Source: Candidatus Cloacimonadota bacterium
Lineage (GTDB): Bacteria > Cloacimonadota > Cloacimonadia > Cloacimonadales > TCS61
Length of the DNA stretch: 50,115 bases
Assembly (NCBI GenBank): GCA_018645365.1
Contig: JABGOP010000008.1
Span: 1,801 to 51,915 of the forward strand
Direction: 5' to 3'
A model generated the notes under the pieces. The model had not been told where the DNA came from. It did no database searches and was given only the letters and a program-made list of their open reading frames with translations. The position numbers and the translations under genes are program-made. This document shows positions 40,002 through 50,115 of this stretch, piece after piece; positions within the stretch are counted from its first letter, which is position 1; each line of letters starts with the position of its first letter.

Positions 40002-40045
40002 TTGAAATAGTTGCTCCTTGATGGAGCGAAATGTCACTATTTCAA
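40002..40045 (-). other. long stem-loop at selenoprotein gene 3' end
   Basis: TTGAAATAGT (40002-40011) and ACTATTTCAA (40036-40045) are perfect 10-bp complements; an inner GCTCC / GGAGC hairpin sits between. The stop codon lies inside the outer stem. It may protect the mRNA end or act with the terminator further on. Confidence 0.6.
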
Positions 40046-42208
40046 TAACAACATTTTATTGCAACCTACTTCTTTGTTGTCGACAATGAGTTTGTAGAAG
40101 TAGATGCCACTTGAGTAATTATTTGCGTCCCAAGTAACTTGTTGGTCTGGTGAATTCGCTATTTGGAGATTTGAGAAAGTTTCCACTTTCTGACCTTTAA
40201 TGTTGTAAATTTCCAATTCAGCGCTTTCGGCACTTTCAGTGTTTAAACTAAATGAAATAGTTGTTTCAGCAGTGAACGGATTGGGGAAGTTGCTTAATTG
40301 ATAATTATTGGTTTCCAATTGGTAGTTATCTTCTGCATTTACGGGGATTTGTAAAGCATCAGGACCACCGTAAGCACCCATATCATTAATAGTTCCATCT
40401 AAATCATTGTAAATAGCATCTGGATTTCCAGCATCGATGCAGGGTGAATTTGAAGTAGTCCACCACGATGCAGTTAAGCCGTCAAATTCCGTACCATAAC
40501 CTGCGGAAGGCGATGCGAAAAGTGGATCAGCATCGATATTGCCAATTCCTTCAAAACCACCATAAATACAACTGTAAGTAGCATCTACATCACTACCTAC
40601 ATTCATATAAAAGTTATTATAAAAACTGAAAATAGAATTTACAATGTTTATGTTAGAATTGAAAATTAACATTTCATTCAGGCTGTTGTTGTTGGCGATG
40701 GTGTTGTTGATGAGATTAACATCAGAACCACTCTTCAAACTAAATGAACCGAAATTACCACTATTATTGACGATGATATTGTTTATGATGGCTGGTGTAG
40801 AAGCCACGCAACCAATACCACCCGTTGCACTTGAACTTGTGTTATTGGCGATGATGTTACGCTGGATGATGACATCATCTGAGCTGTCAACATTGATGCC
40901 AGCTGCGAGTGATGAGCTGGAATTATTGTAAATTAAGCAGTCAGAAACTTCAACACGAGAATCCAAATCTATGGCAATTGCGGAACTATTTGCATTGGAA
41001 ATTTCGCAATTTTTCAAAACATTATTCTGTTGAGTATTTGTGAAACGAATACCTTCCCAGTTATTTTCAGATGTGAAGATAATTGGTTCATCTTCGAATG
41101 CATCTGCAAAAAGTAAACCGCTAACGAGAAGTTGAGCATCTTCTTCAAATAAAATTTCTACGCCAGGATTGATGTAAAGTTGGTTATTGTTAGTAATGCT
41201 TATATCACCTGTAATGATGTATGGATTGTAGCTTTCATCCCAGATTCCAGAAAGATTACCCGAAATATTGGAGCCGTCGGTAACTGTAATGTAATTCTCA
41301 AAAGTATTTTCCACATATTCACCGTTTGCAAAGATGCGCAAAGTAATGTCGTAAGTTCCAACTTCACTATAAAGATAAAATGGGTTTTGAGAAGTGTTGT
41401 CAAACTCACCATCGCCGTCTAAATCCCATTCCCAACTTTCGATTGCACTAGCTGGAAGGGAAAGGTCTGTAAATTGGACGGAAAGATTGGAGGGTCCAGT
41501 TTGTACATTTGCAGAAACGAGTGGAACTGTACCAGTAAATCCCGTTTGAGCGGCTTGTAAAATTTGTTTGTTTCCAGAAAAAGATTGTACGATGACAATA
41601 GCTTTTAAATTGCTTAAATTCCAACCTTCATCCATTGGCAATGCTTCTTCAAAAACAGCAGTTTCACCAACTGAACTTAGAGTAAAATTTTGGTCATCAT
41701 AAGCAGCTACTGAACAAAAATATTCATTATTTATGTATCTCGAAATCATGAAGAGTATTTTGTTGTTTGTAGTTGTGATGTTATCCATTAATTCTACATC
41801 GGCAGTAACCACAAGTTCATTTTGTCCATTCAAGTTTAAAGATAATTCAATTGCGAGTGGACTATCTTGATTGATGACTTGGTTGTATTTTGAAAGGTAA
41901 GTAGGATACATATTTCCACCACCGCCAACGGAAGATAAGTATCCACCAAATTGTGCGTGTGGAATTCCACCAACTCCGTATAAAGACTTTCTAGATGAAT
42001 TACCAGGGCTTGGATTAGAACCGTCACCTTGCCATAATAATGGGATAAAATTATCTAGATTTTCATTCATTTGAGACAACCCGTCCCGGGCGTCTGGGCA
42101 GTAACCTCACCAAGTTTCCGTAAAGACTTCTCCCACCACAACCATCTGCGTTGCAAAAGCAGAAATAGCAGTAACTAACAATAATGTAGCAATGAGTAAT
42201 TTTTTCAT
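40037..42208 (-). CDS. predicted selenoprotein: Omp28-like thioredoxin domain (UxxC), PKD, beta-helix, sorting domain
   Basis: Reading from ATG 42208 (GGAG upstream) gives a signal peptide, then GEVFTETW, then in-frame TGA at 42107-42109, then GYCPDARDG and an open frame to 40037: 723 residues with selenocysteine at 34. U34 and Cys37 form UxxC at the place of the WCxYC motif of Omp28/thioredoxin-like proteins, and GGIPHAQF supplies the expected cis-Pro loop. Then come a PKD domain (about 230-310, DLDGDGEFDN), a right-handed beta-helix with N/S-rich repeats (about 330-560), and a C-terminal sorting domain. A SECIS-like stem-loop begins 11 nt after the TGA. No ribosome binding site precedes the first ATG after the TGA, so readthrough rather than a second gene is needed. 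It is the last gene of the dsbD operon. Confidence 0.85.
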
Positions 42209-42474
42209 TTTTTCTCCTTTTTATTTTACTAAAATCATTTTATTAAGTTCTGAACTTTTGCCATCTACATTTAATTGGTAGAAATAAACACCACTTGAGA
42301 AATTATGTGCGTCCCAAGTAACTTGTTGGTCTGGCGAATTAATGATTTGGATATTTGAGAAAGTTTCCACTTTCTGACCTTTAATATTGTAGATTTTCAA
42401 TTCAGCGCTTTCGGTGCTTTCAGTGTTTAAACTAAATGAAATAGTCGTTTCACCAGTAAATGGGTTGGGAAAAT
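40107..42474 (-). repeat. two near-identical sorting-domain DNA segments
   Basis: About 184 bp at 40107-40290 and 42291-42474 encode the sorting domains of two neighbouring genes and are very similar in DNA, with runs of more than 20 identical bases. The proteins share SLNTES-ESAEL and YNIKGQKVETFSN. This span gives the outer limits; the matching parts are only its two ends. Confidence 0.85.
42074..42095 (-). promoter_or_regulatory. predicted bacterial SECIS element 1
   Basis: Eleven nt after the UGA, AGAC-G-CCC pairs with GGG-T-(T)-GTCT around the loop GGGAC, with one unpaired U on the 3' side. Known bacterial SECIS elements (for example E. coli fdhF) have an upper stem about 11 nt past UGA, a bulged U and G in the loop; the E. 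coli bulge is on the 5' side. Base pairing was drawn by eye. Confidence 0.72.
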
Positions 42475-42943
42475 TCTGTAATTTGTAGTTTGCTAATTCG
42501 TGGTCCTCTGTGCCAACATTGTCAGCAGTGTTAAATGTGAAATTATAAGTTAAAGGCTCAGTCAAATCGCCTTCATCAAAAGTAATTTCAAATGGAAAGC
42601 CATCACAGCTACTTACATTAATTGAGAGATGAATATTCATTGATGCATTTGCTTCTAATTCAATCGGAATAGGCCAATTTGGCATATAGCAAACGCCTAA
42701 GTCATTACAAGCTGTTAGCGACCAACCATCTGGTACTTCCACAGTTGTATATTTGAAAGTATAAGTCTGTGTTTCGCTACTGGTGTTTGTCATTATCATC
42801 CATTCTGAAACAAACTCATAGTCTCCTTCTTCAGCGTAAGAATCTCCCACAATATCCAAATCGAACGGGATATTTACTACCAGCTCTGCAAATAATGCCG
42901 ATAACATTGTAACCATAAAAACTAAATTAACTATTTTTTTCAT
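42221..42943 (-). CDS. secreted protein with sorting domain, unknown function
   Basis: A 240-residue secreted protein: signal peptide (about 1-19), a beta-sandwich-like domain with PDGWSLTACNDLGVCYMP (Cys 79 and 85) and another Cys at 113, and a sorting domain from about 156. I prefer the second of two adjacent ATGs (42943) because GGAG is then 5 nt away. The Cys pair may be a disulfide handled by the DsbD/TlpA system encoded upstream. It lies 12 bp before the selenoprotein gene. Confidence 0.8.
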   Translation of the reverse strand: MKKIVNLVFMVTMLSALFAELVVNIPFDLDIVGDSYAEEGDYEFVSEWMIMTNTSSETQTYTFKYTTVEVPDGWSLTACNDLGVCYMPNWPIPIELEANASMNIHLSINVSSCDGFPFEITFDEGDLTEPLTYNFTFNTADNVGTEDHELANYKLQNFPNPFTGETTISFSLNTESTESAELKIYNIKGQKVETFSNIQIINSPDQQVTWDAHNFSSGVYFYQLNVDGKSSELNKMILVK

Positions 42944-42967
42944 CATTTCTCCTTATTTTTTAATTTA

Positions 42968-44398
42968 TTAGAATCTAGTTGAAACAGTTAGTCGCATTCC
43001 ATCGAATGCTGCCTGATTCTTACAAACACCATTTCGGCAGACTACACCACCTTTTTCTTTTCCATAAAATAATCGTACATCAGTATTATTGAATATCGTT
43101 GTAGCAAGTTCTCCACCTATCCAGAATTCACTGTCATCTCCATCTTCCGATTCTCCGATCTGATTTTCAACAGCAACAGACAGTGAATAGTTTCCAATTG
43201 AAATATCTGTCTGCAAACGTGGTTCAAGATGCGAATGACTGTCTGTTACCTTATCTTCTTCCTTATATTGATATTCAGCTTTTACCAGAACCGGATTATC
43301 CTTAATTAGAAAATCGAAAGTAAGTGTAGGTGTTATTTCTTTATACCAGTGATTGGAATTTTCATTGAATTGTTCAAGGATTTCATTTTCAACTTTGAAT
43401 GACCAGTCTTCAAAATCATGTTTGAATTCGGTATAAAGATTTGAGAGTCTGACTTTGTAATTACTGTTCCAGCCTTCTGCATAATTTATCACAAATTCAT
43501 TTTCGTAGTTAGGAAGGAAGCGGATCTCTCCCATAACTCCTTCTTCATCCTTTCCCGCATCCCAACTGTGTTCCAATTGTTGACCGCTATGATTTACCAT
43601 GGGAAGATCAGAAATTCTCACATCAAAATTCTCATAATTTTTATATGTACTCGTCAGAGTAAATTTATCGAGATAAGTTGTAATGTTGGAATAAATTGCT
43701 GTTCCATTTTCATCTAAATCATCTTTGCTTGTCGCATATTCAGCCATTAGGTCAAATAGGGAAGATGAATAATTAAATTTTCCAGCATAAATTATTCTAT
43801 TGTTGAAATCATCTTCATCAGCATCGATAAGTTCTCTATGCAGAACGTAACTTCCTCCAATAGTTAAATTAGCTATTATGTTGAAATCCGCATCAAATGC
43901 ACCGACTTGATCATATTCATCATCGAAGTCAGGATTGGGGTTATCACATTCCATCAAACCGCCGAATAATTGTAGCTGCCATTTATCGTAAACAGGATTT
44001 AAATAACCACCGATTAATCTGGAATTGAGATCGAAATCGTTATCATAGAAATTGTGTAAAACTATACCGGAACCGATAACTGCCTCGAAAGTTCCAACTT
44101 GAGCAAACCAGTGATCTGATTCAAACTGCAAATAGTATTCATCAAAGTAATTTTCATTTTCTTCTAAACTAGTTGCAAATTTATCAAACTTAGGTTTGTA
44201 GTAATCATATTTTACTCCAGCAAGGAAGTTATTATAATGCAATTGTAACTGAAACTTATCTGAGAAGTAATTATTTGTTTCATTAAATCTATCGGAGCGG
44301 ATATATTGAAATTCGTTTAATCCTGAAAAACTCAGCTCGGAATAGAGTAGATTTGTAGTTAGACATATTAAAATAATTAATAAGAAAGTTTTTTTCAT
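42968..44398 (-). CDS. DUF6029-like outer membrane beta-barrel protein
   Basis: The 476-residue product has a signal peptide, a long run of beta-barrel-type strands and a terminal STRF. The end of the chain contains GVVCRNGVCKNQ (Cys 454 and 459), a paired-Cys feature I associate with the DUF6029 family from Bacteroidota, in which such barrels are found near TlpA and Omp28-like genes. The role is unknown; in this operon it may host or be oxidised by the redox proteins. Assigned from pattern memory. Confidence 0.72.
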   Translation of the reverse strand: MKKTFLLIILICLTTNLLYSELSFSGLNEFQYIRSDRFNETNNYFSDKFQLQLHYNNFLAGVKYDYYKPKFDKFATSLEENENYFDEYYLQFESDHWFAQVGTFEAVIGSGIVLHNFYDNDFDLNSRLIGGYLNPVYDKWQLQLFGGLMECDNPNPDFDDEYDQVGAFDADFNIIANLTIGGSYVLHRELIDADEDDFNNRIIYAGKFNYSSSLFDLMAEYATSKDDLDENGTAIYSNITTYLDKFTLTSTYKNYENFDVRISDLPMVNHSGQQLEHSWDAGKDEEGVMGEIRFLPNYENEFVINYAEGWNSNYKVRLSNLYTEFKHDFEDWSFKVENEILEQFNENSNHWYKEITPTLTFDFLIKDNPVLVKAEYQYKEEDKVTDSHSHLEPRLQTDISIGNYSLSVAVENQIGESEDGDDSEFWIGGELATTIFNNTDVRLFYGKEKGGVVCRNGVCKNQAAFDGMRLTVSTRF

Positions 44399-44408
44399 AT
44401 TCTCACCA

Positions 44409-44942
44409 TTAATTTTCTGACGCTTCAGTTTTCAAAGTGTCTATTTTGGTTTCGCTAACTTCCTGTTCTTCAAACCATCTCACAATCACTTCTTCATAAT
44501 GTTTTTCATCACCTCTCTGATAACCGGTATGATCGTAAATAATTGTTCCATCTTGATCAATGATCAGAGTACGTGGGATATTTGTAACGTTAAATTGTTT
44601 TTGAACAATTTTCTTTGGGTCGAATAGCGTATGAAATTTAAAACGATTCGATTTAATATGAGAAACAGCAGCAGATTTTTTTCGTGGTTTATCAACATTG
44701 ATTGCCACAACATTAACATTCGGATATTTTTCATGTAATTCATTTACTTTAGGAAGTCCGTTTTTACAAGGAACACACCATGTTGCCCAAAAGTCTAAGA
44801 TTACTAAACCTTCTTTTTGAAAATCTGATAATTTAACCTGTTTACCTTCAATATTTTCCAATTTAAATTCACCGGCTTTTTCAGCAGCAAATATTTGTAC
44901 TGCTAAAAGCATGATCAGTATAGTTACAAAAACATTTTTCAT
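44409..44942 (-). CDS. TlpA-family periplasmic thioredoxin
   Basis: A 177-residue exported thiol-disulfide oxidoreductase: signal peptide ending IFAA, active site WCVPC (Cys 56 and 59), cis-Pro at NIPRT (Pro 124), and an acidic tail. TlpA/ResA proteins usually act as reductants fed by DsbD or CcdA, which matches the dsbD gene two places upstream in the operon. Gaps to both neighbours are about 10 bp. Confidence 0.92.
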   Translation of the reverse strand: MKNVFVTILIMLLAVQIFAAEKAGEFKLENIEGKQVKLSDFQKEGLVILDFWATWCVPCKNGLPKVNELHEKYPNVNVVAINVDKPRKKSAAVSHIKSNRFKFHTLFDPKKIVQKQFNVTNIPRTLIIDQDGTIIYDHTGYQRGDEKHYEEVIVRWFEEQEVSETKIDTLKTEASEN

Positions 44943-44953
44943 TATATATCTCC

Positions 44954-46075
44954 TTAATTATTTAATGAAACTTCGATAGTATTGTATGCAGTGCATGTGT
45001 TTTGATTATATGGTGTCTCTAAAGTTTGAACCCAGATCACCAGAGTAATATCTTCGGGTAAACCGGTTGCATTATCCATATACCATTGTGGGAGAACATC
45101 AAGTTCATTGATTTCAAAATTAACAGGATCATCCAAATTCAAAGCTGAAATATCTATAGTTACTCGCTTTAAAGCAATGTTGTGATGCGGGTCGCCATGA
45201 TGATTCGGGTATTCCTCATTATAATCTTCCATCAAAACAGCAACCAATGTTAGATTATTAGTTGATATAGCAGTATCAACTTCAATCTGGACAGAACCAG
45301 TAAGTAAAGAATCAGTAAGATTAGTTTGTATATCAGTTAATGAAATTAAGGGTGGTTCCTGTAGAAGTGGAATGATGGCTGTCTCAATTTCAGTTTGAAC
45401 TTCCTCAGCGCTTGGTGCAGAATAAATTATGTTTGCATTTCCATTAACAATTCCAAGAGGTAATGTACCAGTATTTGGATAGTAACCAAATACATCAGCA
45501 AAATCACCGGCGAGCTGATCACCAACATGATATTCCACATAAGAGAATCTACTACCGTACTGCATTCTGAGGTTATGCAAAGCTTCTTCTGCACTTGGGC
45601 AATTGGAACACCATTGTCCTGTAAATAGCTCTATAACAACATTTCTCATATCAGCCTGGTTGCCATAAAACTGGTATGAATCTTCAGTTTCTATTAAAAC
45701 ATCAGACATTAAAGTATCCATAAATGTGGTTTCTGAATCAAGACTTGTAACCAATAATCTCCAATCTATTGTAAAAGCGTTTGTATCAATTATTGTGGCT
45801 TCAAAGGTCAAAGGCATATTTATATAAGAAAAAGCTTTATAAAATATTTCAACATCAGATTTAATTAAGCCATTATTACTATAATCATTATGAAAGAAAT
45901 TCATAATGTCGGAAACATCTTCGGTTGGCAATATGGTTTCAATTGAATCTGCAAAAGTAGTGAAGAAATCGATTATGTAATTTTCATCCACAATCTCTGG
46001 TTCGAATTTATGTTCAAATCGGTCACAAGCAAAGATAGAGAGAAATATTAAGCCCAAGACAAATATTTTATTCAT
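44954..46075 (-). CDS. Omp28-like lipoprotein with CxxC thioredoxin domain
   Basis: A 373-residue lipoprotein (LSIFAC, lipid Cys 17). Residues ~25-135 are unrecognised. Residues ~145-260 form a thioredoxin-like domain of the Omp28 kind with IELFTGQWCSNCPSAE (Cys 156 and 159) and a Leu-Pro at the cis-Pro place (TLPLGIVNG). A beta domain follows. It is the Cys counterpart of the UxxC domain in the selenoprotein at the end of the same operon, which supports reading UGA there as Sec. Its ATG overlaps the dsbD stop by one base. Confidence 0.85.
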   Translation of the reverse strand: MNKIFVLGLIFLSIFACDRFEHKFEPEIVDENYIIDFFTTFADSIETILPTEDVSDIMNFFHNDYSNNGLIKSDVEIFYKAFSYINMPLTFEATIIDTNAFTIDWRLLVTSLDSETTFMDTLMSDVLIETEDSYQFYGNQADMRNVVIELFTGQWCSNCPSAEEALHNLRMQYGSRFSYVEYHVGDQLAGDFADVFGYYPNTGTLPLGIVNGNANIIYSAPSAEEVQTEIETAIIPLLQEPPLISLTDIQTNLTDSLLTGSVQIEVDTAISTNNLTLVAVLMEDYNEEYPNHHGDPHHNIALKRVTIDISALNLDDPVNFEINELDVLPQWYMDNATGLPEDITLVIWVQTLETPYNQNTCTAYNTIEVSLNN

Positions 46076-47742
46076 TATTTATCTCCTAAATTTTCTTTTA
46101 ATTTGTTTAGAATCATCTCTTTTGTGATAATTTCTGGGAAGACAATTGGTGCTTTTCCGTCGATGAAAAGTACATAAAGAGGAACACCAGCTCTGTCAAA
46201 TTTTGCTAACCATTCATTAATGATATCGTTTTTCTTCGTATTGTCACCGCGTAACATTTGCACATCATATTTTTTGAAAGCACTTTCTATTTTATCTGTG
46301 AAAAGAACGCTGGTTTCGTTTGTTTTGCAAGTAAGACACCATTCAGCTCCAAAATCTAAAAATACAGATTTCCCATTATTTTGATATTCAGCTAAAAGTT
46401 CTGGTGAGAACTTTTGCCAATCGCGTGGATAGTGGGCGTTATCTTCTGTTTGATGTGCATCAGCAGGAGCGTAATCCAAGAGGACAAATCCCAAACTGAC
46501 AGCTAATAAAATAGCTGAAATAGTAGCAATCCACTGTTTTCTTTTGGAAAATTCTGGACGAGCAAATCTACCGTAAATCCAAGCTGACATTCCCAAAACG
46601 ATAAGGTAAAGGAGTAGATTCAGAAAATCGCTATTATTAACCAAAAATGAGAGTGAACGAATGAGATAGAATGCGGTGAGGAAGAGCAAAAATCCCATAA
46701 TTTCTTTGAAAATATTCATCCATTCGCCGGGTTTTGGAATGATTTTTATTGCTTTTGGCCATATTCCTAGTAGGATAAATGGAAAAGCAAGTCCAAGACC
46801 GATAAGAATGAAAATCGCGAAAATCATTATGGCAGATTGTGAAAATGCGAATCCAAGAGCCGCTCCCAAAAATGGGGCAGTGCAGGGTGTAGCTAAAAGT
46901 ACTGCGAAAATTCCACTCAAAAATGAACCGGTTAATCCGCCTTTCATTGAAGCTTTGGTTGCAGTTTGCATTCCCGGTGCACGGATGATAAATACATCAA
47001 AAAGTGAAAGTGCAAAAACGAAAATTAAAATGAGCAGACCAGTTACAAAACCTGCATTTTGGAATTGGAAGCCCCAACCAACATTTTCACCAGCCATTTT
47101 CAAAATAACGATTGCAGTCGCCATGACAATGAACGAAACTACGATGCCAGCTGTGTAGGCAAATGAACTTCGCAAAATTTGTTTTTGGTCTTGCTGGCTT
47201 TGCTTTACTAAGCTCATCGCTTTGATGGAAAGCACTGGTAAAACGCAAGGCATAATGTTGAGGATAAGTCCACCAACGAAAGCCATTAATAAAAATTTAA
47301 TTAATTCTTTTGTATTTGACTTTTCGGTAGGAATCTGATTTCCAAGAGGCAGTTCAATTTCCACCTCTTCTGGAAACATGCAAGTGCCAGATTCTAAACA
47401 CATTTGGTAGCTGGCGTAAATTTTTATGTTGTCTATTTTTGCATTTTCACCAACTGAAAATTTCTTTATTAAAAGCACATTGCCATTGTATTGCACCAAA
47501 CCGTCTGCTGATTTATGACCTTCAGGATAGATGGTTTCTTCGAAATTTAGGCCATCAATCTCATCAGTTTCCACATAAAAGAAATCTTTTTGCAGGTTGA
47601 TGTGCATTTTCTCTGGAATAGAAAATGTTACCTCTATTTGCGAATCGTTTATGATTGCTGAAACTACTTCATTTGTGTTTTGAGCAAAAAGGAAAACGCT
47701 CATCAACAATACTACCGCTAAACTAATTTTCTTAAAACCCAT
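46075..47742 (-). CDS. dsbD: thiol:disulfide interchange protein DsbD
   Basis: DsbD carries electrons from cytoplasmic thioredoxin to the periplasm through three redox modules. All six cysteines are visible in the 555-residue protein: alpha domain CLESGTC (115, 121), membrane domain IMPCVLP (166) and ATPCTAP (287), and gamma thioredoxin domain EWCLTC (469, 472). Eight membrane helices fall between about 148 and 425. GGAGG precedes the ATG. It heads a six-gene redox operon and should power the TlpA, Omp28-like and selenoprotein oxidoreductases encoded after it. Confidence 0.96.
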   Translation of the reverse strand: MGFKKISLAVVLLMSVFLFAQNTNEVVSAIINDSQIEVTFSIPEKMHINLQKDFFYVETDEIDGLNFEETIYPEGHKSADGLVQYNGNVLLIKKFSVGENAKIDNIKIYASYQMCLESGTCMFPEEVEIELPLGNQIPTEKSNTKELIKFLLMAFVGGLILNIMPCVLPVLSIKAMSLVKQSQQDQKQILRSSFAYTAGIVVSFIVMATAIVILKMAGENVGWGFQFQNAGFVTGLLILIFVFALSLFDVFIIRAPGMQTATKASMKGGLTGSFLSGIFAVLLATPCTAPFLGAALGFAFSQSAIMIFAIFILIGLGLAFPFILLGIWPKAIKIIPKPGEWMNIFKEIMGFLLFLTAFYLIRSLSFLVNNSDFLNLLLYLIVLGMSAWIYGRFARPEFSKRKQWIATISAILLAVSLGFVLLDYAPADAHQTEDNAHYPRDWQKFSPELLAEYQNNGKSVFLDFGAEWCLTCKTNETSVLFTDKIESAFKKYDVQMLRGDNTKKNDIINEWLAKFDRAGVPLYVLFIDGKAPIVFPEIITKEMILNKLKENLGDK

Positions 47743-47919: not shown

Positions 47920-50115
47920 TTATTTCAAAAGAATCATTTTCTTTGTTGAAGTGTATCTACCATTAGATTTCATTTTGTAAAGATAAACTCCAGAAGCTTG
48001 ATTGCTTGCATCCCATTCAACTGAAGTGCTATTTGCATTCAAAGTAAGTGTTTTCACAAGTTGCCCTTTCAAATTGAAGATTTCAAGCGATGCGTCTGCA
48101 TTGTCTTTAATTGAGAAACTGATAGTAGTTGCATTGCTAAATGGATTTGGATAATTACCCATCAAGCTTGCATTATTGAAGATAACCTCTTCGTTTACAT
48201 TAACTGGCTGAACCATAATTGGATCTTCCAGAAGTTGGAAACCATCTGTTGTGAGAACGATTTCTGCAATACCTACATAACCTGTTGTAACTTCGGTAAC
48301 TACGATGTGAAGAGTTTCACCTGCGTTCCACTGTGATTCAAAACTACCACATTGAACCACCAAATATCCTGGTAAAGCAAGAGGATCACCGTAACCACAA
48401 CCAACTGTGGTTTCAGTAACAACTTCTGCTGGTCTTTCCAAAATCCACGCGTTGAATGTAATGTCAGCAGGGTTATTTCCCGCATCTACAGTAAGTGTCA
48501 CAGGGATTATAACATCATCACCACCGTTACTTGTAACTGTGATTTCTGCATGATAGTCACCATCTTCCAGGTCAGCATCGTTGAAAGCAAGAATAATTTC
48601 ATCAGTTGCACCGAAAGCCAATTCACCGAAAGCAGGTTCAATTGTTAACCACTCTTCGTCTCTTCCATCGAAATAAACAACTTCTGCATAGACTGGGTGT
48701 GGTGTGGGGCGACCGAAAACGGGTTCTACATATTCGGAAGTGATAACATAAGAAAGAACAGATTCAGTTGCGCCAACATTTGAAATTTCGAATGTTTGAG
48801 TACCAGGTCCAACTTGGATAATGTCTGAAACACTTACATCGATAATTGGATCTTCGCTTCCGCCACCAGCTGCTTCGATTTGAACATTATCGATAGCCCA
48901 GCCAGAAGCCCACGCACCGTTATCATTTGAGTGGAAAAGAATTTGAACATCAGGTACACCAGCATAATCGCCGAGTGCAATTTCGACAGTTTCCCAATTT
49001 GTGCTAGCAGAAAGATCGAGAAGATTATCCCAGGCTCCACCATTCTCACGAATTAAAACATGAGCAGTTTGAGAGTACTCTGCTGTGAAATAGCTATCAA
49101 AAGAGAGAATAGCGCCATCTATTGCTGAAAAATCCATTGAAGGAGTGATGAGATAATCTACCCCACCATCGTCGTTTGCTTCATCGTCATTTGAACAAGC
49201 GTAGTTTCCATCGCCCGTTGGAACAGCCCAATAGGCACTTGAACCGTCTGCTGTAATCCACCAACCTTGTGCTGAATTTGTGGTCATTTCCCAACCTGCT
49301 GGAATATCTCCACCAGAAAAATCTTCCGAGAAAATAATTTCGAGACTTGGGTCACGCACATCAACAACAAATGTGTCAGTTCCATTTTCGCCATCATTGG
49401 CAATTGCACGAAGTGTAACTTCGGTTGAACTCATAATGTTGTTGGCTGTAACTGTGAGAATATCACCGTCAATTGTAACATCACAAATAGAAGGGTTTGC
49501 AACATCATCAACGATAATTGTGAAATCAACACCATCAGCGTGTGCGAAAACACCGCTTACATCAAAAGTTGCAGTTTCGCCAAATTCAAGTGTGAGATCC
49601 GCAACCGGATTTATCACATTGATGCCGGTAAATGACGCGATTGCAGCTGGAACTGCAGCTACTGCTCCAGTTTGATAATTATCTCCGTACATCAAAATAT
49701 TTGAAGCTCCAATTACACCAAAGAAAGGTACATAGCCGTTACCAAAAGCATTGTAATAACCATAAACTTCGGTAGCAAATGGCATATTTACGCCAATTCC
49801 TGACCAATCAAATGTCGCAATGTAATAAACTTCTTCTGAATTTTGATTATTCCACCAAGCTTCCATAAGAGGCGCCGCCTCTGTACAGCCATCTCACCAA
49901 TCTTCTCCCCAAAAAATTACAACTGCTTTGCCGTTGGCTGTAAGTTCATGAATAGAGTGGTTTTCACCGTTACTGTCTGTCCAAGCATAATCTTGGTCAA
50001 TTACATCGCCAACCTCATAAGCTCTTGATAAATCTGTCTCAACATGACACGCTGTTTTATTTGCAAACAACGAGAATGAGAGCACAATTAACAAAAATAC
50101 TAAAACTTTTTTCAT
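47920..50115 (-). CDS. predicted selenoprotein: thioredoxin-like domain (UxxC) with adhesion-type domains and sorting domain
   Basis: The ATG is the last three bases of the window, so the ribosome binding site is outside. From it runs a signal peptide (cut near LFA), an AhpC/TlpA-type thioredoxin region with VVIFWGEDW, an in-frame TGA at 49894-49896, then DGCTEAAPLMEAWW and an open frame to 47920: 731 residues with Sec at 74 and Cys 77 (UxxC). GYVPFFGVIG supplies the cis-Pro. Further on are a cadherin-like beta domain, a jelly-roll domain (about 240-400, FSEDFSGGDIPAGWEM), an Ig-like domain, an unassigned region with a few Cys, and the sorting domain (NYPNPFSNATTISFS). A SECIS-like hairpin begins 11 nt after TGA. 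It is followed by a terminator; upstream context is unknown. Confidence 0.87.
49868..49882 (-). promoter_or_regulatory. predicted bacterial SECIS element 2
   Basis: Exactly 11 nt past the UGA, AGAGGC and GCCTCT form a perfect 6-bp stem with the loop GGC. Distance and G-containing loop agree with bacterial SECIS elements and with candidate 1. The stem is short and lacks a bulged U. The pairing was drawn by eye. Confidence 0.72.

Follow-up and report, generated by a model that had tools for sequence, protein, structure and literature searches.

Selenoproteins with an Omp28-like thioredoxin domain are already known from Neomarinimicrobiota as family NF045500 (Omp28_seleno; GOS_C, 2008), which combines this domain with a UGA-coded UxxC motif, Cys homologs, and a hairpin downstream of the UGA. 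A 2026 review includes GOS_C in a table, and none of the terms Omp28, PKD, secretion, or Cloacimonadota occurs in its text. Export by the type IX secretion system (T9SS) of a protein in which another domain follows one of thioredoxin type is known from HBP35 of Porphyromonas gingivalis (PDB 5y1a), whose thioredoxin activity requires both active-site Cys residues (PMC2907840, PMC3120885). Selenocysteine (Sec, U) in place of the first Cys of an AhpC/TSA-like domain occurs in the Prx-like and TlpA-like UxxC selenoproteins (PF00578; the ResA-like WAxxUGC family NF041054). Finally, PMC5330540 cites work on non-UGA codons for Sec.

The gene described here lies in a window of 50,115 nucleotides (the whole stretch of DNA analyzed) from a Candidatus Cloacimonadota bacterium. 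An earlier note, made from the sequence alone, had described one frame broken by a TGA within a W-U-G-Y-C-P motif. The gene indeed runs from an ATG at 42208 to a TAG ending at 40037 with this TGA (42107-42109) as its sole interruption, and the TGA stands where a thioredoxin-type CxxC would have its first Cys (context ...GEVFTETW-U-GYCPDAR...). The N-terminus of the product is signal-peptide-like, 689 codons are open downstream of the TGA, and domain searches recovered the PKD, beta-helix, and sorting domains that the note had also read. The features of the gene are as follows:

40037-42208, minus strand: predicted Omp28-like, T9SS-sorted selenoprotein gene, 723 aa with Sec34 (frame and domain search)
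42107-42109, minus strand: in-frame TGA, read as Sec34 (homolog column U 60, C 37 of 97)
42074-42095, minus strand: bacterial SECIS-type hairpin AGACGCCCGGGACGGGTTGTCT, 11 nt past the TGA, nine pairs, one bulge (folding and synonymous resampling)
41873-42151, minus strand: thioredoxin-fold domain, residues about 20-112, UxxC at helix N-end, invariant Pro83 (AlphaFold2, alignment, Foldseek)
41534-41860, minus strand: beta-sandwich portion of the Omp28-like domain, residues about 117-225 (AlphaFold2 model)
41282-41515, minus strand: PKD domain, residues 232-309 (Pfam PF00801, 24.4 bits, cut-off 23.5)
40697-41071, minus strand: right-handed beta-helix region, residues 380-504 (Pfam PF13229, 53.1 bits)
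40064-40288, minus strand: T9SS type A C-terminal sorting domain, residues 641-715 (PF18962, 40.9 bits, cut-off 27; TIGR04183, 37.1 bits, cut-off 23)

Standard annotation would truncate this product at the signal peptide and lose the selenium site, and a surface redox protein group of a widespread anaerobic phylum is thereby hidden.

Relatives of the first 223 residues are encoded by 108 of 125 Cloacimonadota genomes, and the majority of the close homologs in the phylum have exactly one TGA. The earlier note had proposed looking for Cys/Sec exchange at residue 34, and that is the pattern found: across 97 aligned Cloacimonadota homologs, this column holds Sec in 60, Cys in 37, and no other residue. 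Five of the Cys rows have a TGA three codons further on, giving CxxU instead of UxxC, and ten of the Sec rows read C-U-G-x-D, with a Cys adjoining Sec rather than three residues on. (The members concerned are L045, L047, L051, L078, and L081 for CxxU, and L075, L076, L079, L080, L082, L084-L087, and L090 for C-U.) Judged from the alignment, the redox site appears to be retained while its partner residue shifts, the pattern to be expected if the active site works.

The source genome, a draft of 1.79 Mb in 59 contigs, was searched for the Sec machinery, a check also suggested in the earlier note, and all four components are present: selB (328.9 bits, above cut-off), selA (545.7 bits), selD (357.4 bits), which carries an in-frame TGA of its own, and a tRNA-Sec (57.6 bits, anticodon UCA) adjoining selB. 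In four other genomes (G060, G068, G075, and G076), TGA family members are present and selA was not found. Missing contigs are the likely cause there, because G060, G075, and G076 do have a tRNA-Sec(UCA), and G068 and G076 a selD. A family of Cys homologs (f2), with no selA in the members listed, was considered and rejected as a different paralog (CPGAAMG) that is also Cys in Sec-using genomes; for this reason, the correlation with loss of selA is not relied on alone.

The SECIS-like hairpin had likewise been anticipated, at 11 nt past the TGA. Its stability greatly exceeds that of sequences recoded synonymously for this peptide (z -5.0, p 0.002, the lowest value that 500 resamples can give). 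Dinucleotide shuffles, in contrast, do not set it apart (z of about -0.4 to -0.7); these shuffles were uninformative, and the synonymous-codon control was therefore used. Among UGA members of the family, a hairpin at +10 to +36 also beats synonymous resampling (mean z -2.26 over 50 standard UGA genes), and in most of them the stem is centered near +22, with core pairs at about +14 to +19 with +25 to +30. RNAalifold on the gapless alignment returned no consensus structure, and base pairs were therefore counted on a specified structure. Counted in this way, the stem co-varies, with 28 cells changed on both sides versus 11.3 in shuffles and a covariation score of 0.334 versus 0.145 in shuffles and 0.08 or less in slid versions. 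For Cys homologs from other phyla, hairpin z values are scattered around zero, and stable hairpins appear again in most of the Neomarinimicrobiota UGA members. The homologs are related and the tests are not independent, so combined p values overstate the evidence.

Some Cys members inside Sec-using genomes retain strong hairpins, and the tRNA-Sec genes of those genomes were read next. The possibility that TGC homologs in Sec-using genomes represent simple Sec loss was set aside once the tRNA-Sec anticodons were read. The anticodon is UCA in the source genome and in the other genomes read, and GCA in eight genomes, at L110 (G055), L111 (G063), L128 (G057), L131 (G084), L132 (G062), L133 (G103), L134 (G058), and L135 (G104). 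These GCA tRNAs have the tRNA-Sec body and GCCA end common to the UCA ones. At the Sec site, family genes of UCA genomes have TGA 41 times and a Cys codon 4 times, against 0 TGA and 16 TGC in those of GCA genomes (Fisher p 2e-11). Genes of one genome are not independent; counted per genome, a TGA member is present in 19 of 21 UCA genomes versus none of the 7 GCA genomes (of the 8) in which the family was compared. All 16 family genes of GCA genomes have TGC at the attacking site; 11 of them use TGT for the resolving Cys, and 12 have a hairpin z of -1.9 or lower. By context alignment, selD in G055, G058, and G084 has TGC or TGT plus a hairpin at the position of the TGA in most UCA genomes. An ordinary tRNA-Cys, selA, and selD were all found alongside the GCA tRNA-Sec in G084; selA was not found in G058 and G063, both incomplete genomes.

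The simplest reading is that UGC is probably recoded as Sec in the GCA genomes. More fully, and as a reading of genes and tRNAs that we consider quite likely, several lineages would use a GCA tRNA-Sec to read as Sec a subset of UGC codons (perhaps also UGU) marked only by the downstream hairpin, with other UGC and UGU codons read as Cys. The Omp28-like family would use UGA in the source genome and UGC in relatives, so that the codon switch is visible within one family. In the selA tree, G103 and G104 stand beside the UCA genome G106 with support, which makes more than one codon switch likely. A switch from UGA to UGC that tracks the tRNA-Sec anticodon would be a natural experiment on how sense codons turn ambiguous, and it would imply that Sec probably stands at some positions now annotated as Cys.

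Several genomes depart from the general pattern. Two UCA genomes, G069 and G093, contain Cys copies. In the UCA genome G108 (contamination 6 percent), a TGC copy on contig C63 (L074) has a strong hairpin (z -4.5) and could be a relic, a misbinned contig, or a transfer. G059 has both a UCA and a GCA tRNA-Sec (L105 and L136; contigs C92 and C116); the GCA copy, whose contig measures 7.5 kb and has no sel genes in the 5 kb read, may be misbinned or transitional.

A systematic scan of the window for an in-frame TGA with UxxC produced one more credible case, at 49894-49896; a search for the UxxC pattern across the source genome yielded mostly chance matches. This second gene, which was absent from the earlier note, belongs to the same gene run, located upstream of the Omp28-like gene on the same strand:

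42221-42946, minus strand: short protein with T9SS sorting domain (PF18962, 45.8 bits)
42968-44398, minus strand: DUF6029 protein (PF19494, 88.9 bits)
44409-44942, minus strand: TlpA/ResA-like thioredoxin (CVPC)
44954-46075, minus strand: Omp28-like lipoprotein with CSNC, the Cys relative (weak NF033782 match, 44.5 bits versus 150)
46075-47742, minus strand: DsbD-like thiol:disulfide interchange protein (PF02683, Thioredoxin_7)
47920-50115, minus strand: second predicted selenoprotein gene, 731 aa, with AhpC/TSA-like UxxC domain, MAM, and T9SS tail
49894-49896, minus strand: in-frame TGA interrupting the second gene (WGEDW-U-DGC), with U replacing the first Cys
49868-49882, minus strand: SECIS-type hairpin of the second gene, six pairs, loop GGC (z -2.4, p 0.014)

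The operon-mate at 44954-46075 does carry Cys at the matching site, in the CSNC motif, as had been pointed out, and its likeness to Omp28 is weak. The AhpC/TSA-like domain of the second selenoprotein is a weak Pfam match (PF00578, 21.1 bits, cut-off 26), and none of the selenoprotein NCBIfam models matched this protein. Within the phylum, 37 of 38 matches to the second family have one TGA, and its hairpin is conserved (mean z about -2.7 over 30 genes). On seven contigs (G108:C130, G109:C23, G110:C4, G112:C2, G114:C68, G115:C65, and G124:C83), the second family and selA lie no more than about 2-3 kb apart; a tRNA-Sec was located in four of these seven genomes, and in each of the four it also lies beside selA and the second family. 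The locus L212 retains the order TlpA, DUF6029, short T9SS protein, Omp28-U, with AhpC-U coming next in that locus (genes named by likeness to those of the window). The presence of two T9SS-tailed selenoproteins adjoining DsbD and TlpA-like genes suggests an outward selenium-based thiol pathway, with the DsbD-like protein as the probable electron source of the operon. A pathway from DsbD through TlpA to the surface selenoproteins is an inference.

We generated an AlphaFold2 model of the N-terminal part of the Omp28-like product from 30 aligned relatives (mean pLDDT 93.4). The predicted structure is a thioredoxin fold, with Sec34 and Cys37 ahead of a helix and the invariant Pro83, followed by a beta-sandwich. 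In the alignment, C34 (the Sec site), C37, and P83 are invariant. The best PDB match retrieved by Foldseek is HBP35 (E 4.5e-11, TM 0.68). The model with its invariant residues and the HBP35 match together satisfy the criteria for a thioredoxin fold, a beta-alpha-beta arrangement with UxxC or CxxC at the N-end of a helix and a conserved Pro loop. The surface sorting proposed in the earlier note is supported by the sorting domain, which is above threshold, and by a homolog of the T9SS translocon SprA in the source genome (471.8 bits, cut-off 200), the only T9SS component sought. The T9SS tail is above cut-off in eight of nine Cloacimonadota-type homologs scanned at full length (the ninth, L222, scores 26.0 versus 27), and PKD domains were reported in seven of them. 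The product thereby meets both the sorting-domain and the SprA criterion for a type IX cargo, and its surface location is inferred from those two.

In the mechanism that we propose, SelA, SelD, and the tRNA-Sec(UCA) would make Sec-tRNA, SelB would bind the hairpin right behind the UGA, and Sec would be inserted at residue 34, where it would make the attack in a UxxC site of the thioredoxin type. The signal peptide would direct export of the product, and the T9SS would then carry it to the surface via its C-terminal sorting domain. The product would act most likely as an extracytoplasmic thiol:disulfide reductase or oxidoreductase, receiving electrons from the co-encoded DsbD and TlpA-like proteins and working alongside the second T9SS-tailed UxxC selenoprotein.

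Were the TGA at 42107-42109 a real stop, the locus would be a pseudogene, a sequencing error, or two separate ORFs. Such a reading can point to a standard stop codon inside the frame, to the four of 39 long ORFs in the window that end with TGA (with a further stop at most 10 codons on), and to the draft state of the source genome with its 59 contigs. However, dozens of genomes share a TGA at the same codon, the catalytic Cys position; the hairpin is conserved and the Sec machinery is present; and the 689 codons that follow remain open with their conserved domains retained. We regard a genuine stop as very improbable. Just as hard to sustain is a changed genetic code in which UGA is decoded as Cys or Trp and not Sec. 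The exchange of residue 34 with Cys would suit it, but UGA has not been reassigned wholesale, because TGA still terminates the four ORFs just mentioned; the credible in-frame TGAs lie at redox sites with hairpins behind them; tRNA-Sec(UCA), SelA, and SelB are all present; and genomes with a GCA tRNA-Sec have TGC instead of TGA. Each check from the earlier note that was run spoke for its selenoprotein reading. Sec coding by UGA in this gene is strongly supported, and although no protein or selenium data are available, we are highly confident from the comparative sequence evidence that it encodes a selenoprotein with Sec at residue 34.

Where this selenoprotein works, and how, is less certain. 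Thioredoxin-fold UxxC proteins can act as oxidant, isomerase, peroxidase, or reductase, and it remains possible, if not the reading that we favor, that the product is periplasmic or has one of the first three roles rather than that of a surface reductase. Members of the superfamily act in any of these ways, and DsbD and TlpA-like proteins, both in the operon, are typical of periplasmic thiol pathways. The same DsbD nevertheless argues for outward electron delivery, and the T9SS tail above threshold in the product and in eight of nine homologs, the SprA homolog, and the HBP35 precedent all speak against a periplasmic protein. We lean toward a surface reductase, with the reaction and substrate inferred only from the fold and the neighboring genes. 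With the stop codon read as Sec, the bacterium probably equips its outer surface with redox proteins that are based on selenium.

The earlier note had called the layout of this protein unfamiliar for a selenoprotein. That holds for the subfamily and its architecture; it does not hold for Omp28-related selenoproteins as such, which were known from NF045500 and GOS_C of 2008. The product scores 69.3 bits against NF045500, below the cut-off of 200, compared to 275-395 for the Neomarinimicrobiota members scanned, and it does not reach the cut-off of Pfam PF11551 Omp28 (34.9) either as the whole protein (16.3 bits) or as the domain alone (19.6 bits). Unlike NF045500, it has PKD, beta-helix, and T9SS tail regions, and its relatives in the phylum have three Sec placements (UxxC, C-U, and CxxU). 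HBP35 differs in having Cys rather than Sec and in binding haem; identity is 15 percent over the structural match, and the PKD and beta-helix regions fall outside that match. The second selenoprotein differs from the Prx-like and TlpA-like UxxC selenoproteins in its weak Pfam match and its fusion to MAM and a T9SS tail. Regarding the codon switch, Mukai and colleagues reportedly described Sec coding by non-UGA codons in 2016, including a Cloacimonetes tRNA-Sec type. Both there and here, a non-UCA tRNA-Sec occurs with selenoprotein genes that have the matching codon; the present analysis shows the matching TGC genes with their hairpins. The Sec-containing Omp28 kind is thus already known, and the type described here is a new surface-sorted subfamily of it. 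As far as the literature examined shows, the additions are this subfamily with its sorting architecture, the three ways of placing Sec, and the connection to coding by UGC.
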